DNA of 36,778 bases, taken from a virus. Position numbers and translations under genes: made by a program. Below, one piece after another: positions 11,224 to 30,256 of this stretch. A model generated the notes under the pieces. That model was not told the DNA's origin. It worked only from the letters and a program-made list of their open reading frames with translations, and did not search any database. Every line of letters starts with the position of its first letter. Position 1 is the stretch's first letter. The stretch covers positions 1-36,778 of IMG/VR virus record IMGVR_UViG_3300010293_000018. One strand, given 5' to 3'.

Positions 11224-11264
11224 ATTGATTTTCCGGAAAGGATGACATCATGATTCAACTAGTT

Positions 11265-11735
11265 GTTCTGGCGCGACGAACGGGTCGTCGGGCATGCCGG
11301 ACTATTGAAATGATTCGAATTCCTCATTCGCAATAATACAATTGAATAGCGGGTTGGACCTTCGTTGGGCCCATACAAAAACCCGCCTGTAGTGGTAGGA
11401 AAGCTCGCTTGCGACCGTGAGCCGCGCCGAGACCTTTAAAGTATGCGAGTTGAACTCCATCGCCACAAATAAGCGACTCTCCATTACCCGGTGTCCCGAT
11501 ATGTCGCGTCGGCCCTACGACACCGCGGACCATCGTTTCACTGCCGCGCGGCCAGGTGGCTCGCGGCGAGGTCTGGTAGAGAGCATCCCCTAAGATCAGG
11601 AACAGAGAACAGGGATAGATAGCCGCCAGACCCCCAACCCCGAAGTCCCTAGTGGTAGAGATAGGCCACTCCATGGAACTCTTTAATGCCCCCGCACACA
11701 GATCGGCCCCGGGAGCGCCACGAGGGACTTTTTTG
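11265..11735 (+). ncRNA. Large structured non-coding RNA candidate (about 470 nt)
   Basis: No credible gene lies between 11224 and 11763. The segment is GC-rich against its AT-rich surroundings and is filled with local stems: CGACGA/TCGTCG (11274-11290); TATTG/CAATA enclosing AATGA/TCATT (11303-11335); GCGGGTT/AACCCGC (11349-11386); GCTCGC/GTGAGC (11403-11422); CGGTGTC/GACACCG enclosing CCGA/TCGG (11489-11525); GCCGCG/CGCGGC enclosing GCC/GGC (11543-11567); AAGTCCCT/AGGGACTT enclosing AGTGG/CCACT (11643-11730). The last stem runs into six Ts, so transcription likely ends there. This looks like an ornate phage RNA of the size class of ROOL or GOLLD RNAs; I cannot assign it to either from memory. 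The + orientation is inferred from the T-run and from the gene strand. Confidence 0.65.
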
Positions 11736-11739
11736 TTTT
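11643..11739 (+). terminator. Terminator closing the structured RNA
   Basis: Arms AAGTCCCT (11643-11650) and AGGGACTT (11723-11730) form an 8-bp outer stem holding an inner hairpin AGTGG/CCACT (11651-11670). TTTTTTGTTTT follows. It is unusual in enclosing about 70 bases, so it is both a 3' domain of the RNA and a probable intrinsic terminator. Confidence 0.55.
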
Positions 11740-11763
11740 AAATCCATAAAAGGAGAAATGAAA

Positions 11764-12240
11764 ATGCCACTACCTCATACATCTCGCTTCGAGGACATCT
11801 TGATAATGCTATCATATGGTATGGTAAAGAAACCCTGGCTTTACTATATTCTTAGCATTGTTTGGGGTCTTCCTCTCACTATCATTGGATATTTACTAGC
11901 ACTAGTCTTGCTTCCTTTTGGGAAGCTGGAGAGAGTTGGTTTGACCTATTGTCTTATTCTGAACAGGGAAACATCCTGGGGAATGAGCATTGGGACGATG
12001 ATATTCATTGGTAGGAACTCCGTTGGAGATCGAAGGATGCTCGAACACGAGTATGGCCACACTTTCCAAAATGCCATATTTGGTCCATTTACTCTGTTTC
12101 TTGTTTCCATACCAAGTGCTGTAAGATTTTGGATTAGACAATATATGTATGCTCATGGAAAAACCCCGAAAACAGACTATGATTCTGTATGGTTTGAGGG
12201 TAGCGCATCAAAAATAGGACTCTTCACAATACCGTTTTAA
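11764..12240 (+). CDS. Membrane protein with HEYGH metalloprotease-like motif
   Basis: This gene encodes 158 residues. ATG 11764 lies 8 bases after GGAG; ATG 11758 is too close to the ribosome site, and the in-frame start at 11686 is inside the RNA. Hydrophobic segments lie at about residues 24-53 (LYYILSIVWGLPLTIIGYLLALVLLP) and about 105-120. Between them is LEHEYGHTFQN with H95-E96-Y-G-H99, the HExxH zinc motif. The C-terminal VWFEGSASKIG supplies E in WFEG-x-A, a plausible third ligand. I recognise this small family (HEYGHT-x-Q, GP, SIPSA-x-R, WFEGTASK) from bacteria and phages, but no substrate is known. It follows the structured RNA directly and has a strong AAAGGAGA site. Confidence 0.75.
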   Translation: MPLPHTSRFEDILIMLSYGMVKKPWLYYILSIVWGLPLTIIGYLLALVLLPFGKLERVGLTYCLILNRETSWGMSIGTMIFIGRNSVGDRRMLEHEYGHTFQNAIFGPFTLFLVSIPSAVRFWIRQYMYAHGKTPKTDYDSVWFEGSASKIGLFTIPF

Positions 12241-12252
12241 AAAGGAGAAATC

Positions 12253-12378
12253 ATGGAGAAATTCGAAATCAAAGAAGAAGGAATGAAAGACCCTCATCAA
12301 CTCAAGAACGACTACCAAAAACACGCCTATGAACAAATTCGAGCGTGGGCGAACGCCGCGATTGCTCGACACACCTAG
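12253..12378 (+). CDS. Small 41-residue protein
   Basis: ATG 12253 has a perfect AAAGGAGA leader (AAAGGAGAAATC) 13 bases after the previous gene and stops at TAG 12376. The product MEKFEIKEEGMKDPHQLKND... is charged and helical. The same leader precedes the 12589, 13170 and 13636 genes, which supports real translation. After the TAG, the +1 frame stays open to 12504 (SFREMPWWQFLSAQFHLL...), so a frameshift or lost reading frame is possible. Family unknown. Confidence 0.5.
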   Translation: MEKFEIKEEGMKDPHQLKNDYQKHAYEQIRAWANAAIARHT

Positions 12379-12588
12379 TTTCAGAGAAATGCCGTGGTGG
12401 CAATTCCTCAGCGCGCAGTTTCACCTCCTCCTTTCGCTCTGGACCATTGCGTCCCCGAAAACCCCCATGCCTGGGGTTTTTAACTCAGCGCCTACGCCTT
12501 AAAGTAGTAAAGGTCTGTTCTTCCGTCGCCTCCACGATCTCTAACAGGCTTTACTCGCCACGACAATTTCATTTTTAAAGGAGAAATC
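12379..12588 (+). ncRNA. Second structured intergenic segment
   Basis: These 210 bases hold no convincing gene. They contain an AAAACCCC/GGGGTTTT hairpin (12458-12480) and a nested stem AGTAAAG/CTTTACT (12506-12555) enclosing CTGTT/AACAG. The GC content is higher than in the flanking genes. It may be a small RNA, or a processed leader of the 12589 gene. It could also be a decayed gene. Confidence 0.35.
12458..12481 (+). terminator. Rho-independent terminator
   Basis: AAAACCCC (12458-12465), loop CATGCCT, GGGGTTTT (12473-12480), then T. The 8-bp stem with flanking A and T runs is the usual bidirectional terminator form. Confidence 0.65.
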
Positions 12589-15662: not shown

Positions 15663-15844
15663 GATATACTTGAGAGAAACTATCACACTATTCTTAATGT
15701 TAAGGGGGTGTTATGCGCCTTGTCAAAACTATGACAAATTTCTCATCCTTGTCAAAAGTTTTTGAGACTTTCGCGTATTTCACCCCCTAAACCGTGATAA
15801 AACCAAAAAAGATTTGACAAGAAAATACGGATTTGACAAGGCCA

Positions 15845-15887
15845 ACTATCCGTTTGGATAGCTACATGTGACTATCCGTTTGGATAG
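15845..15887 (+). promoter_or_regulatory. Two identical palindromes, candidate operators
   Basis: ACTATCCGTTTGGATAG occurs exactly at 15845-15861 and 15871-15887, 26 bases apart. Each holds CTATCC/GGATAG around GTTT. Twin palindromes next to an XRE gene fit operator sites OR1/OR2 for dimers. The spacing is about 2.5 helical turns. Confidence 0.65.
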
Positions 15888-15896
15888 TTGTGTCAT

Positions 15897-15925
15897 TTGT
15901 CAGAAATTTTACTAAAAAGTATTTA
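15897..15925 (+). promoter_or_regulatory. Candidate sigma-A promoter
   Basis: TTGTCA (15897-15902), 17-base spacer, TATTTA (15920-15925), in a very AT-rich stretch 10 bases after the second palindrome. The -10 box is imperfect. It would drive the nuclease genes at 16112 and beyond. The rest of 15663-16111 holds no gene. Confidence 0.35.
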
Positions 15926-16111
15926 AAAATAATTTTAATTATAAAAGTTTTTGGAAATATTTTTGACAAGTGACAAGGGGGTCAAAAACGCATCTTTTAC
16001 AAACACTTATTTTTTTTCGCCCACGCGTAAAATACAAGGACTTTTATGAGGAGAAGGATAAAATGCCTATTGGCATGGACAAAGCCTTTTATTTTTTGTC
16101 TGGAGGACATT

Positions 16112-16464: not shown

Positions 16465-17103
16465 ATGCAATGGAATGATCACCATGAGTTAGAAGGAAAG
16501 CACGCTTTCTTGGGAGCGAGCAATTTCAGATGGATGAATCAGAACGACGTAGATTTCGAAAAAAGGTATTATGCACAATTTGCAACCTCGATCGGCACAG
16601 CCATTCACGAATTAGCAAAAGACTGTATTGACAGTCGAATGAAGTTAACTAAACATGATAAGCGTTTAGTTGAATATTCGATGTACAAGAATGGCATTCC
16701 AAAAAGAGCCTATGACCCAGACACAATCTTAACAAATCTCCTCCCCTTCGTTAATGATGCAATTGGATACCGTATGAGTTCTGAGATTATTCTTTTCTAT
16801 AGTTATAATAGTTTTGGAACGACCGACGCAATAGTGTTTAACGAAAAAGAGAAGACTCTTCGAATTCATGATTTAAAGACGGGCACAACGCCAAGTCATA
16901 TTGAGCAGTTAATAGTGTACGCAGCCTTATTCTGTCTAGAATACAAAAAGAAACCGAAGGATTTTACAACAGAACTTCGTATTTATCAAAGTTCGGAAAT
17001 TTTAAATTATACAGCGGAGCCGATGGAGATCGAAAAGACAATGGAACTCATCAAACTCAGAGACTCGGACATAAAAGAATATTACGAGGGGGATTTTAGA
17101 TAA
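16465..17103 (+). CDS. RecB/Cas4-like PD-(D/E)XK exonuclease
   Basis: This gene encodes 212 residues, with AGGGAGA upstream. Motifs: N-terminal SIGTAIHELAKDCI (His in the usual GxxxHE position), then GTTDAIVF (D121), IHDLKTG (D136, K138) and QLIVYAALF (Q-x(3)-Y). This is the RecB C-terminal nuclease signature, without the four iron-sulfur cysteines of Cas4. Such phage proteins work as 5'-3' or end-processing exonucleases in recombination. TAATG overlap couples it to the large DFDGD protein at 17103, so the three genes 16112-20078 form an operon. Confidence 0.82.
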   Translation: MQWNDHHELEGKHAFLGASNFRWMNQNDVDFEKRYYAQFATSIGTAIHELAKDCIDSRMKLTKHDKRLVEYSMYKNGIPKRAYDPDTILTNLLPFVNDAIGYRMSSEIILFYSYNSFGTTDAIVFNEKEKTLRIHDLKTGTTPSHIEQLIVYAALFCLEYKKKPKDFTTELRIYQSSEILNYTAEPMEIEKTMELIKLRDSDIKEYYEGDFR

Positions 17104-20078
17104 TGGAAGACGACGAGAACAAAAAAATTGAGGACCAAACATTATCGCATTATGGAATGCCCAGACGTTCGGGTCGATATCCTTGGGGATCTGGAGAAAC
17201 CCCCTATCAAGGCGAAGGCGATTTTCTTAGTAGAATCCAGCCTTACAGAGATAAGGGAATGACCGATAATGAAATTGCAAAGGAACTCGATATTTCTACC
17301 ACAAAGTTTAGACAAAATCAGAGTCTGGCGATTGATCAAAGAAAGTCGGATCTTGTCGCTAGAATAAAGAGCATGCAGTCTGATGGATTGAGCAATCCAA
17401 AGATTGCGGCTGAACTCGGATTGGCTGGAGAATCCACGGTACGGTCTTTACTAGCGTCAGACGCAAAATCAAGACTTAAAATTGCAAGAAAAGCAGCCGA
17501 CTCTATTCGTGAAATTATCGATGAAAAGGGTATGCTTGACGTTGGTGTTGGCGTGGAACGAGAACTTGGCATCTCCAGAGAAAAATTAGGTCAAGCAATC
17601 CAGATTCTGCAAGAAGAGGGTTATTTACTTTACCCAGGAAGAGTTCCACAATCTACCAATAAGGGTAAATATACAACCATAAAAGTTTTGTGTCCTCCCG
17701 GAACACAGCATAAAGAAATCTATGAATATGACAAGATCAATCATTTGACTGATTATATTTCTAGAGATGAAGGGGATACATTTGAACCAGGTTTTATTTA
17801 CCCATCTTCTCTTAATTCTGATAGGATTCAAATTCGCTATGCAGAAGAAGGCGGAAAAGAAAAAGACGGGGTCGTTGAACTTAGAAGAGGAGTTCCTGAT
17901 ATTTCTCTAGGCTCTTCGAATTATGCTCAAGTTCGTATTCTGGTAGATGGAACTCATTACATCAAGGGCATGGCTTTATATTCAGATAACATGCCCGAAG
18001 GTGTCGATATTGTCTTCAATACCAATAAAAAAATCGGAACTGACAAGATGAAAGTTCTTAAGGCCATCAAAGAAGACCCCGACAATCCGTTTGGTTCTGC
18101 AATTAAGGAACATGGTGGGCAATCATATTACATCGATCCTGTCACCGGAGAAAAGAAACTCTCCGTAATCAACAAAAGAGCAGATGAGGGTGATTGGGGA
18201 GAATGGTCGAAAGAGTTGTCTTCTCAATTCCTATCAAAACAGCCAACGAAAATGATTGAGAAACAAATTAATTTGGCTATGGTTGACAAAAATGCAGAAT
18301 TTAACGAGATCATGTCTCTTACGAATCCAACAGTAAAGAAAGCCTTACTTGAAGCATTTGCAGATGACTGTGACTCGTCAGCTGTTCACCTTAAAGCTGC
18401 GTCTCTTCCTGGAACTCACTATAAAGTTATATTGCCAATCGGCTCTTTAAAAGATGATGAAACATACGCTCCCCATTTGAAAGATGGAACACAAGCGGCT
18501 CTAATTCGTTTTCCGCATGGAGGAACGTTTGAGATTCCGATTGTAACTGTAAATAATCGTAATAAAGAAGGCATCAGTGTTTTAACGCCAAATCCTCAAG
18601 ATGCAATCGGTATTAATTCCAAAGTTGCGGAACGTTTGTCCGGAGCTGATTTTGATGGTGACACTGTAATGGTTATTCCACTTAGCGAAACCGTTAAGAT
18701 CAAATCCACACCCGCTCTTAAAGGCTTGCAAGGGTTTGATACAAAAATGACTTACGGACCGGATAGTAGTAAAATTGGATCCGATGGGATAGAACATTTT
18801 TATAGAGGTGAAAAAGAAATCTCCGTTATGAAGGAATCAAATCTTCAGTTGAAAATGGGGATTGCCTCGAACCTCATCACAGACATGACATTGAAAGGCG
18901 CCACAGATGAGGAAAAAACCCGTGCCGTAAAGCATTCAATGGTTGTAATCGATGCTGTAAAACATCATCTTGATTATAAACAAAGCGAAATTGATAATGG
19001 GATTAAGGCTCTACACAAGAAGTATCAAGGCCACATTGATCCCGAAACGGGCCGTGAAAGACAAGGTGCCGCAACTCTTATTTCTAGAGCAAAATCAGAA
19101 GTCACAATTAATGAGAGAAAAGAAGCACCTGGATATTTTGCAAAAGATACTGGGAACAGACTCATTCTCGTTGATGAAGACAATAAGGTATTTTTGGATG
19201 AAGAGAGCGGTAGATTCTACTCTGAAAAAGAGAAAAGAACGTTATATGCTGATCCAAAAACAGGGGAAAAGTTGTATAAAGACACGGGTAGAGAATATAC
19301 AAAAGTTCATTACAAGGATTCCACTGGAAAGAGTCAAACGTCCACTGGTATTGTCAGAGATGGCAGACTATTTTACAAAGATGAAGATAAAAAATGGATT
19401 GAGGTCACGAGTGAGAAATTCAAGACACAACTTGCGACTATGAAATCCACAAGAATGGCAGAGGCCAAAGATGCTAGAGAACTTTCTTCTGGCACTCCAC
19501 AAGAAGAGCTTTATGCGACATATGCAAATAGTCTTAAGGCTCTAGGCAATGAGGCTAGAAAAGCCTTTTTGGCAATTAAGGAGATATCGTACTCTCCCTC
19601 TGCAAGACAGACCTATCAACAAGAGGTTAATCAACTAGAAGAGAAGCTCAATAGGGCCCTCCTAAACGCACCAAAGGAGCGCTATGCTCAAATGCTTGCC
19701 GCTACAAGAATCAAGGCGAAGCTAGCTGGTGTTGTAACATTGACCCCCGAACAAGAGAAGAAGATAAGACAACAAGAACTCTCTAGAGCCAGAGTAAAAG
19801 TTGGAGCAAAGCGTAGCAACATTCGTCTTGAGATGAGAGAATGGGAAGCAATTCAAGCTGGTGCTATAACAAAGACAAGACTTGAACAAATCATTGCGAA
19901 CTCTGACTTAGACATTCTCAGACAACTAGCGATGCCTAGAGCCACAACTGTTCTCAGTGACAACAAAGTAAGAAGATTGATCAGCATGTCTGCTTCTGGA
20001 TACACTTCATCTGAGATCGCAGATGCTTTGAACATTCCAGTATCAACGATCAGTAACTATCTGAGAAAGGAGGAATAG
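17103..20078 (+). CDS. Candidate single-chain RNA polymerase (DFDGD motif) with HTH domains and N-terminal LSHYG...PWGSG tag
   Basis: The product has 991 residues. Residues 14-36 carry the tag LSHYG, then RRSGRYPWGSGE. Residues 44-75 and 80-115 look like two helix-turn-helix units (MTDNEIAKELDISTTKF; LSNPKIAAELGLAGESTV). A central part holds RFPHGG (R469-P471) followed by ERLSGADFDGDTVMVIPL with D516-F-D518-G-D520. ADFDGD is the metal-binding loop of the beta'-subunit double-psi barrel of cellular RNA polymerases and, as DxDGD, of YonO-like phage enzymes and RNAi polymerases; R-x-P before it also fits. The last 35 residues form a third HTH (GYTSSEIADALNIPVSTISNYL). It lacks separate beta and beta' subunits. 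It probably transcribes phage genes, but activity is not proven. Confidence 0.72.
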   Translation: MEDDENKKIEDQTLSHYGMPRRSGRYPWGSGETPYQGEGDFLSRIQPYRDKGMTDNEIAKELDISTTKFRQNQSLAIDQRKSDLVARIKSMQSDGLSNPKIAAELGLAGESTVRSLLASDAKSRLKIARKAADSIREIIDEKGMLDVGVGVERELGISREKLGQAIQILQEEGYLLYPGRVPQSTNKGKYTTIKVLCPPGTQHKEIYEYDKINHLTDYISRDEGDTFEPGFIYPSSLNSDRIQIRYAEEGGKEKDGVVELRRGVPDISLGSSNYAQVRILVDGTHYIKGMALYSDNMPEGVDIVFNTNKKIGTDKMKVLKAIKEDPDNPFGSAIKEHGGQSYYIDPVTGEKKLSVINKRADEGDWGEWSKELSSQFLSKQPTKMIEKQINLAMVDKNAEFNEIMSLTNPTVKKALLEAFADDCDSSAVHLKAASLPGTHYKVILPIGSLKDDETYAPHLKDGTQAALIRFPHGGTFEIPIVTVNNRNKEGISVLTPNPQDAIGINSKVAERLSGADFDGDTVMVIPLSETVKIKSTPALKGLQGFDTKMTYGPDSSKIGSDGIEHFYRGEKEISVMKESNLQLKMGIASNLITDMTLKGATDEEKTRAVKHSMVVIDAVKHHLDYKQSEIDNGIKALHKKYQGHIDPETGRERQGAATLISRAKSEVTINERKEAPGYFAKDTGNRLILVDEDNKVFLDEESGRFYSEKEKRTLYADPKTGEKLYKDTGREYTKVHYKDSTGKSQTSTGIVRDGRLFYKDEDKKWIEVTSEKFKTQLATMKSTRMAEAKDARELSSGTPQEELYATYANSLKALGNEARKAFLAIKEISYSPSARQTYQQEVNQLEEKLNRALLNAPKERYAQMLAATRIKAKLAGVVTLTPEQEKKIRQQELSRARVKVGAKRSNIRLEMREWEAIQAGAITKTRLEQIIANSDLDILRQLAMPRATTVLSDNKVRRLISMSASGYTSSEIADALNIPVSTISNYLRKEE

Positions 20079-20086
20079 AGTATAAT

Positions 20087-20395
20087 ATGAGCAAGGAAAT
20101 CAGAGTTACAACAGCAGACAACCCTTATGACCCATTCAATGAGTGGGAAAAATGGCTATTGTTTGACACAAACAAGGGATACCACACCTGCGAAAGACTT
20201 GCTTCTGTTACTACTGTATCCGATCAGTTCTCAGATGATGAGGTTTACGAAGCCGTTGAGAATGGTATTGCAGAACTCATGAAGACAGGTGCAATTAACA
20301 AACTTGGTGAAATCGTAGAGTTTAAGAAAGTAGTCAAAGAGGTTCCAGATATGATTCAAGAAGCTCCTGTTGACGAAACAGGGGCAAGCAACTAA
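20087..20395 (+). CDS. Small conserved acidic protein following the RNAP-like gene
   Basis: This gene encodes 102 residues, with AGGAGGAAT about 14 bases upstream inside the previous stop region. The sequence DNPYDPFNEWEKWLLFDTNKGYHTCERLASV, then VSDQFSDDEVYEAVENGIAELMKTGAINKLGE, is a family I know from Bacillota phages directly downstream of large proteins like the 17103 product. The function is unknown. The constant neighbourhood suggests an accessory factor of the RNAP-like protein or of packaging. It is acidic, with no membrane helix. A 356-base non-coding region follows. Confidence 0.75.
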   Translation: MSKEIRVTTADNPYDPFNEWEKWLLFDTNKGYHTCERLASVTTVSDQFSDDEVYEAVENGIAELMKTGAINKLGEIVEFKKVVKEVPDMIQEAPVDETGASN

Positions 20396-21805: not shown

Positions 21806-22180
21806 ATGCCGACGCCCTCATTCAAAGATCAGAGTATATTGGATTCAACGAAGAAAATTCTTGGTCTCTCTGAGGATGACATTTCTTTTGACGATCAGAT
21901 CATCACTCATATCAACACTGTTTTTTCAGATTTGACACAGATGGGAATCGGCCCATCCGCCGGTTTTATCATCGAAGATAAGACACAGAAATGGTCGGAT
22001 TTTATCAAGGATGAATCGCTTCCGGATAACACGGTTGTCCTATCGCGAGTCAGAACCTATCTTCCGGCCAAAGTAAGAATGATGTTTGATCCTCCCTCCG
22101 GCAGCGTTCATATGGACGCCCTGAAGGCGGTTATTACGGAATCCGAATATAGACTCTACGTCGCAGCAGGAGGTCATTAG
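21806..22180 (+). CDS. Head-tail connector (gp6-like)
   Basis: This gene encodes 124 residues. The sequence SILDSTKKILGLSEDDISFDDQIITHINTVFSDLTQMGIGP matches the helical connector fold of HK97 gp6-like proteins, followed by FIIEDKTQKWSDF and VRTYLPAKVRMMFDPPSG, also characteristic. The protein forms a ring under the portal and links the head to the tail. Unusually it lies before the large terminase, not after the capsid gene. The start has no strong ribosome site (TATAGTC), so translation is probably coupled to the preceding stop. Confidence 0.82.
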   Translation: MPTPSFKDQSILDSTKKILGLSEDDISFDDQIITHINTVFSDLTQMGIGPSAGFIIEDKTQKWSDFIKDESLPDNTVVLSRVRTYLPAKVRMMFDPPSGSVHMDALKAVITESEYRLYVAAGGH

Positions 22181-22183
22181 TTT

Positions 22184-22717
22184 ATGCGAAACACTTATAT
22201 TGTCAAAAGAACAAACGTTTTATCCCACGCCGGAATCAAAGACATGAAGTGGGGTATTCGGCGTTTCCAGAACAAAGACGGGACTCTAACTGAGGCTGGA
22301 AAACTTCGATATAGGAGTGGCGGGGATTTTGCCCAATCGGTAGATTCCCGTGGTAGGAGAACCGAGAATATGACCGAGGAAGGTAAGAAAAACTACAGCT
22401 CAAGAGCCTCCGTTGCTTCGAATGTCTCGAAAGGTCTTGAATCTGCGGCAAAACTTACCGATATCGGGAAACAAAAATCAAAGACTACTAGACCAAACTA
22501 CGATAATGTTACTGATGAAGAACTCAAGAAACGTGTTGCAAGATTGAGTTTGGAAGAGCAATATGGGAGACTTTCCGGAGACGCCAAAAAGGTCCGCACT
22601 GGTTCCGATTGGGTTCATGAGATTCTTCAGACGGGTTCGATTCTGGCAAGTATGGCGGGCACTGCTGTCTCAATTTATATTGCATTAAAAGCTTTAAGGG
22701 GCGGAAAAGTCGTATGA
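22184..22717 (+). CDS. HxG-WG-R tag protein 1 (C-terminal TM)
   Basis: This gene encodes 177 residues. The tag LSHAGIKDMKWGIRRFQNKDGTLTEAGKLRYR is at residues 12-44. A polar middle follows, then TDEELKKRVARLSLEEQYGRLSG, a helical segment. A C-terminal hydrophobic stretch (IASMAGTAVSIYIALKAL) is probably membrane-spanning. The tag matches the recurrent H-x-G-x-(K/L/P)-(G/D)-(M/Q)-(K/R)-WG-x-R-(R/K)-(F/-)-Q pattern found in the next genes. It is common in Bacillota phage proteins, but its role is not known to me. Here the tyrosine is alanine (HAG). The stop region overlaps the next ATG. Confidence 0.8.
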   Translation: MRNTYIVKRTNVLSHAGIKDMKWGIRRFQNKDGTLTEAGKLRYRSGGDFAQSVDSRGRRTENMTEEGKKNYSSRASVASNVSKGLESAAKLTDIGKQKSKTTRPNYDNVTDEELKKRVARLSLEEQYGRLSGDAKKVRTGSDWVHEILQTGSILASMAGTAVSIYIALKALRGGKVV

Positions 22718-23118
22718 TCCGCGTAACATATCCGAACGAGCTTTCTCACTATGGTGTCAAAGGTATGCGTTGGGGCCATCGTAAACTCGAAAAAGCTGCC
22801 AAAAGAATCTCCAACAAAAGGAAAGAGAAGATAAAAGCCGCTCCAGCGAAAGATGCAATAAGAACCGGTTTCAAAACCTATGCTTCGATGTTGGCCACAG
22901 GACTCCTGACAAGCACAATAGCAGGTTTGATGATTGGGAAAGCCAGAGCCACTGGCTCACTACTTTCGGTTGGGCAAGCGAGAGCTGTTAAGATTCTTTC
23001 GAAAGTTGGGACGTTTACGTTTAACAATGCCGCACTTATCGGTGTATCCGCAGCCGTAAAACAATCGAAAGTGAACGATTATATTTTAAAAGAGAATCAA
23101 GAAGGAGGAGCCTCATGA
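22714..23118 (+). CDS. HxG-WG-R tag protein 2 (membrane, basic)
   Basis: This gene encodes 134 residues. The N-terminus MIRVTYPNELSHYGVKGMRWGHRK is the tag. A very basic helix follows (KLEKAAKRISNKRKEKIKA), then hydrophobic segments ATGLLTSTIAGLMIG and FTFNNAALIGVSAAV. The pattern of tag, basic patch and membrane segments recurs in genes 23115 and 26713. It is probably a small virion or ejected protein, which is inference. It overlaps the previous gene by four bases and the next one too. Confidence 0.8.
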   Translation: MIRVTYPNELSHYGVKGMRWGHRKLEKAAKRISNKRKEKIKAAPAKDAIRTGFKTYASMLATGLLTSTIAGLMIGKARATGSLLSVGQARAVKILSKVGTFTFNNAALIGVSAAVKQSKVNDYILKENQEGGAS

Positions 23119-23441
23119 ACAGACAAGCATATCCCAATGAACTTTATCACTACGGAGTATTAGGAATGCGTTGGGGGCAAAGAAAAGCCTCCGGTGGAAA
23201 CGGCATTCAAAGCAAGATCAAATTACCAAAAAACACATCCCCAACACCCAGAACGCCAGACGAACAAAAAGCCAGAGCCCGTCGAATTCGTCGGGGGATG
23301 GTTGTCGGTGGGTCCATCCTCGCCCTTATCGGAGCCGGTATCGTCGCTGATAACAAATTTGCTGCTCGTCAAGGTCTTCCGAGTATTATTGATCTTGGAA
23401 AAGTGTGGGCAACTAAGGCTACCAAAGGTAGCATTCTATGA
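23115..23441 (+). CDS. HxG-WG-R tag protein 3 (single TM)
   Basis: This gene encodes 108 residues, from ATG 23115 with AAGGAGGAG just upstream. The tag is MNRQAYPNELYHYGVLGMRWGQRK. A proline-rich basic linker (LPKNTSPTPRTPDEQKARARRIRRG) follows, then one hydrophobic segment (MVVGGSILALIGAGIVA). The first 20 bases are almost identical to those of the 23438 and 26713 genes, which shows recent duplication or recombination. Function unknown. Confidence 0.8.
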   Translation: MNRQAYPNELYHYGVLGMRWGQRKASGGNGIQSKIKLPKNTSPTPRTPDEQKARARRIRRGMVVGGSILALIGAGIVADNKFAARQGLPSIIDLGKVWATKATKGSIL

Positions 23442-23926
23442 ACAGACAAGCATATCCGAATGAGCTTTACCACTATGGCATTTTAGGTCAAAAGTGGGGT
23501 GTTCGACGTTTTCAGAATCCCGATGGTTCTCTGACAGAGGCTGGAAAAAAAAGAGTGTCAAAAGAATTCGATAAAACGTTCGATGCTGGGTATAAAAAAT
23601 ACGCAAAAACAGGCCCTCATTTGAATGCTTATAACAGAGCGGCCGATGAAATGAATAATGGCATGATTGACAAATTCAATAAAAAACATTGGAAACCGAA
23701 CATGACGGAAAGCCAGCAGGACGATTATGTTCACGCGTATGAGAATCTATTCGAAGAGATCTACACCAAACATCAACACGATTTGGTAAAAGAATTCTCC
23801 AAAACTAGCCCAGAATTTAAGTTTGCGGAGGATGTTTTAAAAAAATACGGGAGTGAGTTTGTCGGACCCAAAAACGAGTGGAAAGTCAACTTCATAAAAG
23901 AACATCTCATTACTAAGAAGGACTGA
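23438..23926 (+). CDS. HxG-WG-R tag protein 4 (soluble)
   Basis: This gene encodes 162 residues. Its tag YHYGILGQKWGVRRFQNPDGSLTEAGKKR has the long form with the extra FQNPDGSLTEAG, like proteins 22184 and 25670. The rest is a soluble helical domain (FDAGYKKYAKTGPHLNAYNRAADEMNNGMIDKFNKKH, then DDYVHAYENLFEEIYTKHQHDLVKEF) with no membrane segment. The ribosome site is AAAGGTAG inside the preceding gene. It differs from its neighbours, which are membrane proteins, so the tag is attached to unrelated cargo domains. It directly precedes the terminase. Confidence 0.8.
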   Translation: MNRQAYPNELYHYGILGQKWGVRRFQNPDGSLTEAGKKRVSKEFDKTFDAGYKKYAKTGPHLNAYNRAADEMNNGMIDKFNKKHWKPNMTESQQDDYVHAYENLFEEIYTKHQHDLVKEFSKTSPEFKFAEDVLKKYGSEFVGPKNEWKVNFIKEHLITKKD

Positions 23927-23930
23927 TATT

Positions 23931-25673
23931 ATGCTCTCTAATACGGCTGTGCCAATCTATTACGGCCGCTTTAGAGAAGCGGTTCTTGACGGAAGAATCC
24001 CTGTTTGTAAAGAGATTTCAATGGAGATGAATCGCATTGATAATCTTATAGCAGACCCTAACTTTTACTACGATGATTTAGCCGTGGAGGGTTTTATAAA
24101 GTACTGCGAGAACGAATTAACGCTGACAGATGGTACTGACTTGGTTCTTCTTGACTCCTTTAAACTATGGGCCGAGCAAATTTTCGGTTGGTATTACTTT
24201 GTAGAACGAAGTGTCTTTGTTCCGAGTAAGGATGGGAGAAGCGGTTACTATGAGAAGCGTTTTATCAAGAAGCGCCTCGTCAACAAGCAGTACCTAATCG
24301 TTGCTCGTGGAGCAGCTAAATCCATGTACGGCTCTGTTCTACAAAGTTACTCTCTGAACATTGACACATCAACCACATATCAGGTAACAACCGCCCCAAC
24401 AATGAAACAGGCTGAAGAGATTCTATCTCCTATCAGAACATCTATCGCAAGAGCGAGAGGACCCCTATTCAAATTTTTAACAGAGGGCTCTTTGCAAAAC
24501 ACCACTGGCTCCAAAGCGAACAGAGTCAAGCTTGCAGCGACAAAGAAAGGTATTGAAAACTTTTTGACTGGATCGTTGATCGAGATAAGACCTATGCGGA
24601 TTGACAAGCTTCAAGGTCTTCGCTGTAAGGTTGCAACAATCGACGAATGGCTATCTGGTGACGTTCGAGAGGATGTAGTAGGGGCCATAGAGCAAGGTGC
24701 TTCGAAAGTTGAAGACTATCTTATCGTTGCAATGTCTTCTGAAGGCACTGTTCGTAATGGTAGTGGTGATTCAATCAAAATGGAGTTGATGGACATACTT
24801 CGCGGAGAGTATTACAACCCACACGTGTCCATTTGGTATTACAGACTTGATTCTATCGATGAAGTCTCCGATCCAAACATGTGGCCAAAAGCCAATCCAA
24901 ACATTGGGAAGACGGTTTCCTACGAAACCTATCAACTTGACGTGGAAAGAGCCGAGAAAGCCCCCGCAACAAGGAACGATATTCTAGCAAAGCGCTTTGG
25001 TATACCGATGGAAGGCTACACTTACTTCTTTACCTATGAAGAAACACTTCCTCATAGAACTAGAGATTTTTGGAAATTGCCTTGCGCTCTTGGTGCAGAC
25101 CTTTCACAGGGCGATGACTTCTGCGCCTTCACATTCCTATTTCCTCTGAAAGGTGAAACTTTTGGTGTAAAGACTAGAAGCTACATAAGCTCTTTCACCC
25201 TTCACAAACTTCCCCCAGCGATGAGGTCAAAGTATGATGAGTTTATGCAAGAGGGCTCTTTGATTGTATTTGAAGGGACTATTCTTGACATGATGATAGT
25301 CTATGACGATCTTGATAGGTTTATTATCGCACATGGCTACGATGTAAGAGCTTTGGGATTTGACCCATATAATGCAAAAGAGTTTGTCGAAAGATGGACT
25401 TCAGAAAATGGTGCATATGGAGTCGAAAAAGTAATTCAAGGTGCTAGAACAGAGTCGGTCCCGCTTGGAGAATTGAAGAAACTAGCGGAACAAAGGTCTC
25501 TCATATTTGACGAAGAGCTCATGACTTTTGCGATGAGTAACTGTATAACCATGGAAGACACAAATGGTAATAGAAAGCTCTATAAGAAGCGTCAAGAAGC
25601 AAAGATTGATAATGTTGCCGCTTTGATGGATGCTTTTGTTGCTTATAAACTTAATAAGGAGGCGTTCGAATGA
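23931..25673 (+). CDS. terL: Terminase large subunit
   Basis: This gene encodes 580 residues. The N-terminal ATPase has ARGAAKS (R126-S131, K130) as Walker A and TIDE (D238, E239) as Walker B. The C-terminal RNase H-like nuclease has GADLSQGDD (D390), LGFDPYN (D478) and KIDNVAALMDA (D560, D567). It cuts concatemeric DNA and drives it into the prohead at the portal. The Walker A is RGAAKS instead of the common RGxGKS. The length is usual for this family. Uniquely in this window, it is flanked on both sides by tag proteins, with the 25670 ATG overlapping its stop (ATGA). Confidence 0.95.
   Translation: MLSNTAVPIYYGRFREAVLDGRIPVCKEISMEMNRIDNLIADPNFYYDDLAVEGFIKYCENELTLTDGTDLVLLDSFKLWAEQIFGWYYFVERSVFVPSKDGRSGYYEKRFIKKRLVNKQYLIVARGAAKSMYGSVLQSYSLNIDTSTTYQVTTAPTMKQAEEILSPIRTSIARARGPLFKFLTEGSLQNTTGSKANRVKLAATKKGIENFLTGSLIEIRPMRIDKLQGLRCKVATIDEWLSGDVREDVVGAIEQGASKVEDYLIVAMSSEGTVRNGSGDSIKMELMDILRGEYYNPHVSIWYYRLDSIDEVSDPNMWPKANPNIGKTVSYETYQLDVERAEKAPATRNDILAKRFGIPMEGYTYFFTYEETLPHRTRDFWKLPCALGADLSQGDDFCAFTFLFPLKGETFGVKTRSYISSFTLHKLPPAMRSKYDEFMQEGSLIVFEGTILDMMIVYDDLDRFIIAHGYDVRALGFDPYNAKEFVERWTSENGAYGVEKVIQGARTESVPLGELKKLAEQRSLIFDEELMTFAMSNCITMEDTNGNRKLYKKRQEAKIDNVAALMDAFVAYKLNKEAFE
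25653..25671 (+). repeat. 19-bp leader repeat, copy 1
   Basis: AATAAGGAGGCGTTCGAAT here recurs exactly at 26097-26115. This copy spans the end of the terminase gene and the ATG of the 25670 gene. A repeat that includes a ribosome site points to duplication of the translation-start cassette. Confidence 0.85.
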
Positions 25674-28540: not shown

Positions 28541-30256
28541 ATGGCGAAGAAACCAAAAGGTAGTTTCGACTTCGCAGGATGGGCGACTCGTTTCAACATC
28601 AAGTGTTCCGACGGGAGAACCATCAAAAACGAAGCTTTCATGCATCATGATGGAATGACGGTGCCTCTCGTCTGGGGGCATAAGCACAATGATATTGACA
28701 ACGTATTGGGTCATGCGTTGTTGGAATTTCGTGAGAACGAGGGTATTTATACCTACGGCTCGTTCAACAGCACAGACGAAGGAAAAAGAGCTAAAGAAAT
28801 GGTCTCCCATGGGGATATTACGGCTCTTTCTATCTATGCGAACAAATTGAAACATAAGGGCTCCGACGTAGTCCACGGTGAAATCAAGGAAGTAAGCTTG
28901 GTTCTCGCCGGAGCAAATCCGGGAGCCCACATCGAGACCGTTCTCGCACACAGCGAGGATGAGGGAGATGAAGCGGTTATTTTCAATGTAAGTGATCAAC
29001 TGTTTCTTGAACATTCTGATCAACAGGATGATGAAGAAAAAAACCCCAAGGAGGACACGAAAGTGGAAAAAACGGTTCAGCAAGTTTTTGACGAGTTCAG
29101 CGAAGAGCAAAAGAACGTCGTCTACGCAATGATCGGCCTTGCCCTCGAAGAAGGCGGCAAAAAAACCCAGGAGGAAGACACGATGAAGCAAAATCTGTTC
29201 AACAACACCCAGCAAAATGATGAAGAAAGCATCCTCAAACACGAAGAAGTTCTCGAAGCCATCAAGGACGCCAAGAAGGTCGGGTCGCTGAAGACTTCGT
29301 TCCTCGAACATGGAATCACGGACGTCTCGCAACTGTTCCCCGAGACCCAGGCCGTCAATCGTACGCCGGAGACCATCTCCCGCGACATGAACTGGGTCCA
29401 GAAGGTCATGAGCAAAGTCAAGCACTCGCCCTTCTCCCGCGTCAAATCGACCGCCGTCAATCTCACCGCCGATGAAGCCAAAGCGAAAGGCTACATCAAG
29501 GGCGACCAAAAGGCCGAACAGGTCATCGTCGCTCTGAAGCGCTCGACGACCCCCCAGACCATCTACATCAACCAGAAAATGGACCGTGACGACGTCGTCG
29601 ACATCACCGATTTCGACGTTGTCGCCTTCCTTAAATCCGAAATGCGAATCCTTCTCGACGAAGAAATCGCCCGTGCCATCCTGATCGGCGACGGCCGCCT
29701 GGCCTCCGACGAACACAAGATCAAGGCCGACAACGTTCGCCCGATCCTCGGCGACAATGCGGTCTACACCGTTCCGAAGATCATGGAACCGGCCAGCGGC
29801 GAAAGCGAATACGCCTTTGCCAAGCGTCTGATCAAAGAAATCATCAAAGCCCGCAAGGACTACAAAGGCTCCGGAAATCCGGACTTCTTCACGACCGAAG
29901 ACATGCTCACCAACATGCTTCTGATCGAAGACACCAATGGCCGCGTCATCTATGAAACCGTCGACCGCCTGAAAACGGCGCTTCGCGTTTCCGACATCAT
30001 CACCGTTCCGGTCATGGAAAACGTCGTTCGTACCAACGATGCTAGCACCTTCGACTACACCTGCCTCGGCATCCTCGTCAACCTGAACGACTACAACGTC
30101 GGCGCGGACAAGGGTGGCGCGGTCTCCATGTTCGAAGATTTCGACATCGACTACAACAAGGAAAAATACCTCATCGAAACCCGCATCTCCGGCGCGCTCA
30201 TCAAGCCGTATTCGGCGATCAGCTTCGAACTCAAAACGAACCACGTCGCCGGCTAA
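28541..30256 (+). CDS. Fusion of prohead protease and major capsid protein
   Basis: This gene encodes 571 residues. Residues 1-150 resemble HK97-type prohead protease: VPLVWGHKH (H47) and DITALSIYA (S97), the His-Ser pair of this serine protease, then VVHGEIKEVSLVLAGANPGA. Residues 150-215 are an acidic, helical, scaffold-like linker. From about residue 215 the HK97-fold capsid protein follows (PFSRVKSTAVNLTADEAKAKGY, DITDFDVVAFLKSEMRILLDEEIARAILIGDGR). Two internal in-frame starts have good ribosome sites: GTG 29063 (V175, AAGGAGG at 29048) and ATG 29183 (M215, AGGAGG at 29169). So a free capsid protein may be made besides the fusion. The capsid part uses C-ending codons, unlike the protease part. 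Confidence 0.9.
   Translation: MAKKPKGSFDFAGWATRFNIKCSDGRTIKNEAFMHHDGMTVPLVWGHKHNDIDNVLGHALLEFRENEGIYTYGSFNSTDEGKRAKEMVSHGDITALSIYANKLKHKGSDVVHGEIKEVSLVLAGANPGAHIETVLAHSEDEGDEAVIFNVSDQLFLEHSDQQDDEEKNPKEDTKVEKTVQQVFDEFSEEQKNVVYAMIGLALEEGGKKTQEEDTMKQNLFNNTQQNDEESILKHEEVLEAIKDAKKVGSLKTSFLEHGITDVSQLFPETQAVNRTPETISRDMNWVQKVMSKVKHSPFSRVKSTAVNLTADEAKAKGYIKGDQKAEQVIVALKRSTTPQTIYINQKMDRDDVVDITDFDVVAFLKSEMRILLDEEIARAILIGDGRLASDEHKIKADNVRPILGDNAVYTVPKIMEPASGESEYAFAKRLIKEIIKARKDYKGSGNPDFFTTEDMLTNMLLIEDTNGRVIYETVDRLKTALRVSDIITVPVMENVVRTNDASTFDYTCLGILVNLNDYNVGADKGGAVSMFEDFDIDYNKEKYLIETRISGALIKPYSAISFELKTNHVAG

Follow-up and report, generated by a model that had tools for sequence, protein, structure and literature searches.

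A two-barrel phage RNA polymerase with a tag-like N-terminal peptide is probably loaded into the virion to start early transcription

The viral record IMGVR_UViG_3300010293_000018 of IMG/VR (positions 1 to 36,778, the whole 36,778-nucleotide stretch being referred to here as the window) encodes a 991-residue RNA polymerase, and the N-terminus of this enzyme carries a variant of a short peptide tag that is also found on seven small proteins of the head region. The genes run in the order replicase, helicase, nucleases, polymerase, a small gene resembling gp76 of Lactococcus phage 1706, HNH, connector, tagged proteins, terminase, further tagged proteins, portal and protease-capsid (Table 1). Allowing for genome ends, this order is kept in Lactococcus phage 1706, Rhodococcus phage ReqiPoco6, Faecalibacterium phage FP_oengus and Gordonia phage Kenosha. 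No nucleotide-level relatives of the window were found among phages, and Rfam gave no match in it.

The polymerase has a full-length profile match to PHROG 4291 ('RNA-dependent RNA polymerase'; 1164.9 bits, residues 7-990). Its AlphaFold2 model has a mean predicted local distance difference test score (pLDDT) of 81.5 and is confident except at residues 1-38 and 219-230. Foldseek retrieved QDE-1 with this model (E 6e-8), and in VIA-align the core reached Z 14.0 against QDE-1 (7y7s) and plant RDR2 (7w82), the two-barrel fold being aligned at this score over 367 residues with a root-mean-square deviation of 4.4; Thermus phage gp64 (8f72) followed with Z 12.5, and the core also resembles the catalytic region of cellular polymerases. 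The aspartates of the DbDGD motif of two-barrel RNA polymerases (D516, D518 and D520) are invariant in 46 sequences. No T7-type polymerase domain was matched by Pfam in the protein, and the fold matches are two-barrel enzymes. A sequence search of the PDB yielded only helix-turn-helix, designed or repeat proteins and, very weakly, the tape measure protein of P23-45, and gp66 of the crAss-like phages was not among the structures compared, which is uninformative because the comparison covered the Foldseek top list only. The protein is thus predicted, from sequence, model and analogy, to be a phage-encoded, single-chain, two-barrel enzyme of the DNA-dependent type, the last point being preferred because of YonO and other phage relatives (PMC5467207, PMC10770324); 'RNA-dependent' in database names is a sign of the fold family. 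The C-terminal sigma-4-like helix-turn-helix and the helical DNA-binding-like segments behind the tag, where NCBIfam HTH_Cbp1 also matches under its cut-off (residues 44-138), may aid promoter finding. The gp76-like gene lies directly 3' of the polymerase in 49 of 57 loci and its product, with invariant T-D-N-P-P-W-D residues, is a possible polymerase partner; its confident model found no PDB match at E<=0.001.

The tag on the small head-region proteins corresponds to Pfam PF23847 (DUF7211), a motif of 25 positions. The translation of 17103-20078 begins with MEDDENKKIEDQTLSHYGMPRRSGRYPWGSGETPYQ, and the original prediction, that a longer form of this tag occupies residues L14 to E32 (17142-17198), proved exact: the LSHYG of the polymerase is identical to the start of the tag LSHYGVKGMRWG in the protein encoded from 22714, and both forms share the core L-x-H-x-G ... 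W-G, with about four additional residues before WG in the polymerase. H16, G18, S23, G24, R25, G29, S30 and G31 are invariant across 46 homologues, so that the H, G, SGR and GSG residues of the peptide are conserved to the same degree as the catalytic DFDGD aspartates, and the peptide sits within residues 1-38, where pLDDT is below 50. A loose pattern, aliphatic/aromatic-x-H-x-G-x(1-14)-WG, arose in 0.045% of cases when the first 60 residues were shuffled, with an expectation of 0.01 over the N-termini of all open reading frames (ORFs) of the window. When the tag profile was compared by hhalign with the whole 991-column polymerase profile, the single meaningful match fell on residues 10-36 (P 1.9e-4, score 27.8; runner-up 13.5). 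Anchoring both profiles on H-x-G, a procedure biased by the anchoring itself, gave P 1.9e-7 and a score of 26.4 against a best of 15.9 in 100 column shuffles. Chance resemblance was rejected on the basis of the shuffles and the whole-profile comparison, and a few polymerase homologues have weak partial DUF7211 matches (E 7e-4 to 6e-3). Judged by these comparisons, the peptide is a variant of the DUF7211 tag that is peculiar to the polymerases. The further claim that no other large protein of the window has the tag holds in substance, with the qualification that the capsid-protease encoded from 28541 fits the loose pattern (MHHDGMTVPLVWG). This look-alike was set aside, as it lies inside the S78 prohead protease domain and seems to belong to the fold of that domain; we take the segment to be tied to the active-site region of the protease.

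Tag and polymerase occur together in other genomes almost without exception, contrary to the case that would have spoken against the original prediction, two motifs that never co-occur. The tag is present in 37 of 44 polymerase-bearing records, most of the seven others being fragments, and in seven out of seven named phages with the polymerase. Of 15 long contigs selected solely for their terminase, the polymerase is present in 14 and the tag likewise in 14; G055, the only one without polymerase, is truncated a short way upstream of the terminase. Across 299 genomes from one bacterial family, five carry tags and six the polymerase, all five on the same contig as the polymerase and within about 7 kb of it, and in 398 genomes of the phylum either element was found in the centre genome only. 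Tag and polymerase searches of 50,697 phage records matched the same genera, with equal counts of both for Gordonia (55), Streptomyces (54), Curtobacterium (7), Microbacterium (4) and Rhodococcus (4); the N-terminal 41 residues of the polymerase found matches in 250 records at 251 places. The combination thus ranges over phages of Bacillota and Actinomycetota. DUF7211 was absent from eight control genomes (sk1, 949, phiC31, HK97, SPBc2, phi14:2, P23-45 and N4).

In the window, DUF7211 occurs in the seven proteins encoded from 22184, 22714, 23115, 23438, 25670, 26117 and 26713, five of them over the cut-off (27 bits) and two at 20.1. A hydrophobic segment is clear in five of the seven and borderline in a sixth. 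Pfam domains among 80 tagged ORFs of relatives include GNAT acetyltransferases, LigT/2'-5' RNA ligase-like proteins, glutamine-deamidase-like papain folds and an ADP-ribosyltransferase. Over 236 tagged ORFs, the tag lies within the first 40 residues in 220, and 47 have at least two tags. Taken together, the tagged proteins look like cargo for injection. No relevant paper on DUF7211 or the tag peptide was found in the literature. One of the 80 is a portal protein (L132:4585-6216) in which the tag follows the portal domain at a distance of about 35 residues, a hint of the tag working inside the head or at the portal.

The depositors of the phage 1706 record (EU081845) label gp75, the homologue of the polymerase (1030 residues, SLQHYGTKRHSGRYPWGSG), 'structural protein', and gp7, which carries two DUF7211 tags, is labelled likewise. 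The record holds 15 ORFs labelled structural, portal, capsid or tail (6, 7, 9-13, 17-21, 62, 71 and 75), in agreement with the 15 proteins of phage 1706 that Garneau et al. reportedly identified in 2008 by liquid chromatography-tandem mass spectrometry (LC-MS/MS). The label of ReqiPoco6 gp106 is copied by similarity from that of 1706, and no virion proteomics of relatives was found in open papers. Going by its depositors' label, a homologue of the polymerase in a relative of the window phage appears to be a virion protein, which goes against the other case that would have refuted the original prediction, a polymerase never found in virions.

Repeated intergenic motifs were sought in the relatives, and a compact promoter-like motif, TCGCA-N4-TTACA-N4-YTATAATGAGA (the TATAATGAGA motif), was found with close variants in eleven polymerase-bearing genomes from phages of two bacterial phyla, including 1706 (L083/L085), P078 (L212), Kenosha (L216), ReqiPoco6 (L215), Arthrobacter phages (L226-L240) and gut contigs (L220, L222). 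Phage 1706 has 12 copies of TTTTACA-N4-CTATARTAGAAAG where 0.08 are expected, P078 and CHPC971 have equivalent sets, and Kenosha and ReqiPoco6, whose hosts are of high GC content, have TCGCA-N4-TTACACG-N2-CTATAATGAGACCCC. Counted as a fixed pattern with at most one mismatch, the motif occurs 12, 10 and 11 times in the Lactococcus phages, 8 times in the Gordonia and 5 times in the Rhodococcus phage, 5, 7, 6 and 17 times in four Arthrobacter phages and 3 and 12 times in gut contigs G009 and G016, in all eleven genomes on the coding strand; by the same count it is absent from sk1, 949, phiC31, HK97 and SPBc2, two of which infect the host species of 1706. A related motif lies on the opposite strand in G036. 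In the genomes that were mapped, no site falls among the structural genes and most are located between the tail and replication genes, not at late genes as in a YonO-like pattern; the polymerase gene of 1706 has no site upstream. A search of IMG/VR with the motif and no protein information returned at least 120 stretches. Among the contigs with the motif, the polymerase is encoded in 30 of 39 with a length of 30 kb or more, in 22 of 24 from 40 kb upwards and in all 14 from 46 kb upwards. Most of these contigs were new, but the count is partly non-independent, since it includes some phages in which the motif had initially been noticed.

These observations support the original prediction of a packaged polymerase, through the co-occurrence of the tags, the labels in 1706, and the contrast between a motif at early genes and a polymerase gene in the head region. 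The enzyme is probably a late-made, tag-loaded virion polymerase that starts early transcription. It would be made late, together with the head proteins, would be loaded into the prohead at least partly via its disordered N-terminal tag, would be ejected together with the DNA into the host, and would then start transcription of the early genes at the compact phage promoter. Because the polymerase gene stands beside head genes and the motif at early genes, the enzyme is probably brought in by the virion; if it reads the motif, it is needed before its own gene is expressed and would therefore come with the particle. The label of 1706 gp75 likewise points to virion delivery. The N-terminal tag is most likely the loading signal, the motif is putatively recognized by the polymerase, and the window phage may be presumed to behave like its relatives.

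Several points weigh against this account. These phages share a common syntenic core, so linkage alone is no proof of joint function, and tag, polymerase and promoter may be travelling together as one syntenic lineage. The N-terminus of the window polymerase gives no Pfam match to DUF7211, the curated cut-off not being reached, and is therefore called here a tag variant and not a formal member. The window contains no motif site, because it covers mainly replication and head genes and the early region falls outside the fragment; contig G004 has few sites, and FP_oengus has a divergent but similarly placed repeat, TGACGCGAAAAAT...CTTTATGGAA. On the structural list of 1706, gp62 and gp71 are small, untagged products of early/middle-region genes (orf62 and orf71 of EU081845) without a Pfam match, so gp75 could have been listed through co-purification or contamination. 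Contig G012 is the one long contig that encodes the polymerase without any DUF7211 match; its protein in the tagged position (L205:16037-16999) has KHGGWVKDDTKGFVPKGTPGAHPTG, possibly a diverged or replaced tag.

Some of the evidence could also be read as pointing to an enzyme made after infection that serves later genes, with a peptide that acts in the enzyme itself, for example by binding a gp76-like partner, its likeness to the tag being fortuitous or convergent. YonO, which has a related fold and is likewise a single-chain two-barrel polymerase, transcribes the late genes of SPbeta (PMC5467207), a gp76-like gene comes right behind that of the polymerase in 49 of the 57 loci, and the SGRYPWGSG-type motif was not found in proteins other than polymerases, either with the N-terminal peptide as query or among the tagged ORFs; being restricted in this way, the SGRYP/GSG part may serve the enzyme. 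We consider this quite unlikely, since gp75 of 1706 is labelled structural, the shared motif stands at early and not late genes with none upstream of the 1706 polymerase gene, the tag profile singles out exactly the N-terminal peptide in the whole polymerase profile, and SPbeta has no DUF7211 match. It is more improbable still that an early-acting virion polymerase owes its loading to a different region or to a partner, with the N-terminal motif serving promoter recognition or catalysis. Such a role would suit a motif as invariant as the active site and followed by helical DNA-binding-like segments, and the virion polymerases of crAss-like phages and P23-45 are packaged without the tag (PMC10172136, PMC10770324), DUF7211 being absent from phi14:2, P23-45 and N4; the profile match to the tag, the common H-x-G...WG core and the tagged head-region cargo nearby would, however, be left unexplained.

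As the 3' half of the motif reads TATAAT in many genomes, an activator-assisted host sigma factor might use it, and the motif could be a sigma-A promoter with an activator site while the polymerase has a different role. The spacing is not sigma70-like, TTACA and TCGCA lying 5 and 14 nt before TATAAT instead of about 17, and the -10-like part varies between genomes (TATAGT in 1706, CTTTATGG in FP_oengus, TATTATGG in G009); moreover, the motif is missing from phages that infect the same host species and accompanies the polymerase over hosts from two phyla, and this alternative seems very unlikely. The tag itself could be an assembly tether, for example to portal or terminase, with injection of the tagged proteins incidental, an idea that gains from the tagged genes flanking terminase and portal and from the portal protein tagged after its portal domain. 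It is unlikely, although worth keeping in mind, in view of the virion label of 1706 gp7 and of enzyme domains on tagged proteins that suit delivery into the host.

Table 1. Positions of the polymerase, its parts and the neighbouring genes in the window.
Feature	Position	Strand	Basis
Single-chain two-barrel RNA polymerase (PHROG 4291), 991 aa	17103..20078	+	PHROG 4291, AlphaFold2 model, Foldseek, VIA-align
Variant tag LSHYGMPRRSGRYPWGSGE, residues 14-32, predicted disordered	17142..17198	+	invariant residues, model, hhalign to tag profile
Helical DNA-binding-like region following tag, residues 41-125	17223..17477	+	phrog_3855 helix-turn-helix at 68-117; helices in model
Catalytic aspartate motif SGADFDGD, residues 513-520	18639..18662	+	D516, D518, D520 invariant; weak Pfam RdRP match 507-630
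C-terminal sigma-4/LuxR-like helix-turn-helix, residues 951-989	19953..20069	+	GerE 3.8e-8, HTH_23 3e-7, Sigma70_r4_2 6.4e-7
Conserved small gene (1706 gp76-like, PHROG 4303), possible polymerase partner	20087..20395	+	PHROG 4303 1.6e-22
Connector protein (1706 gp6-like)	21806..22180	+	Phage_connect_2 5.8e-33; 1706 gp6 7.3e-21
Tagged protein LSHAGIKDMKWG, hydrophobic segment	22184..22717	+	DUF7211 4.1e-4, under cut-off; hydropathy
Tagged protein LSHYGVKGMRWG, borderline hydrophobic segment (hydropathy 1.5)	22714..23118	+	DUF7211 1.6e-10
Tagged protein LYHYGVLGMRWG, hydrophobic segment	23115..23441	+	DUF7211 5.2e-10; hydropathy
Tagged protein LYHYGILGQKWG, soluble	23438..23926	+	DUF7211 1.8e-6; hydropathy
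Terminase large subunit, flanked by tagged genes	23931..25673	+	homologous loci; position as TerL of ReqiPoco6 and 1706
Tagged protein IAHEGIKGQKWG, hydrophobic segment	25670..26101	+	DUF7211 4.1e-4, under cut-off; hydropathy
Tagged protein LIHYGVLGMKWG, tag at residue 73, hydrophobic segment	26117..26701	+	DUF7211 5.3e-11; hydropathy
Tagged protein LYHYGVPGMRWG, hydrophobic segment	26713..27087	+	DUF7211 8.3e-10; hydropathy
Prohead protease fused to major capsid protein	28541..30256	+	Peptidase_S78 3.1e-6; phrog_3270 head maturation protease 1.5e-201

Elsewhere in the window, the 443-bp gap at 15663-16105, downstream of a small XRE-type helix-turn-helix gene, holds two perfect copies of ACTATCCGTTTGGATAG and several TTTGACAAG/CTTGTCAAA repeats and looks like an operator or iteron cluster. 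The 1.3 kb at 11224-12588 contain one uncertain ORF and no Rfam match, and their first part seems, by eye, richer in G+C than the surroundings.

The enzyme is encoded by about 250 sequenced phages, whose hosts are Streptomyces, Gordonia, Arthrobacter, Rhodococcus, Lactococcus and gut bacteria, and most records call it 'helix-turn-helix protein', 'hypothetical' or 'RNA-dependent RNA polymerase'. Should it prove to be a virion polymerase, early transcription throughout this group would be explained and the promoters would become predictable, and the tag would offer a handle for finding or delivering injected proteins. We lean slightly towards a still broader view, in which long-tailed phages that form a large lineage and infect Gram-positive hosts from two phyla would share one injection programme: a short portable tag would mark the RNA polymerase, membrane proteins and enzymes (for example acetyltransferases, ADP-ribosyltransferases and deamidases) for head loading, and the co-injected polymerase would read one promoter type, that of the motif above, across hosts of very different base composition.

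Virion two-barrel polymerases are already known from crAss-like phages and P23-45 (PMC10172136, PMC10770324), and a free, late-encoded, tag-bearing virion polymerase with its own conserved promoter across two phyla was not found in the literature searched. In phi-crAss001 (gp47, gp49 and gp50), a two-barrel polymerase is carried with other cargo proteins and is proposed to start early transcription (PMC10172136), and gp66 of phi14:2 is referred to as a virion RNA polymerase (Drobysheva 2021, as cited in PMC10770324). The likeness would lie in a two-barrel enzyme that travels with other cargo proteins and starts early transcription; in contrast to the crAss-like case, the window enzyme is of about 100 kDa, belongs to siphovirus-type genomes and has a short N-terminal tag, whereas phi14:2 has no DUF7211. 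In the long-tailed siphovirus P23-45 of Thermus, the two-barrel polymerase gp96 is delivered with the particle and reads the pre-early genes (PMC10770324). It shares the two-barrel architecture, and the gp64-type fold matches the window model (Z 12.5), but gp96 forms the N-terminal portion of the tape measure protein, whereas the window polymerase is a free protein with a tag that is lacking in P23-45. YonO of Bacillus phage SPbeta is, like the window enzyme, a phage-encoded single-chain two-barrel polymerase of about 100 kDa (PMC5467207). It differs in transcribing late genes after induction, in a phage without a DUF7211 match. The original prediction had likened the polymerase to those of N4 and crAss-like phages; the latter comparison stands, gp66 being closer, as is P23-45 gp96, and N4 is a poor one. 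The N4 virion RNA polymerase is packaged, injected and transcribes early genes, but it is a very large enzyme of the T7-like family and not a two-barrel one, and N4 has no DUF7211 match. The capsid-targeting sequence of T4 is a short N-terminal peptide on several injected proteins (internal proteins and Alt), an ADP-ribosyltransferase among them, and in this it resembles the DUF7211 tag; the T4 sequence is cleaved by the prohead protease, whereas the DUF7211 tag, known here as a sequence feature, can be internal or repeated.

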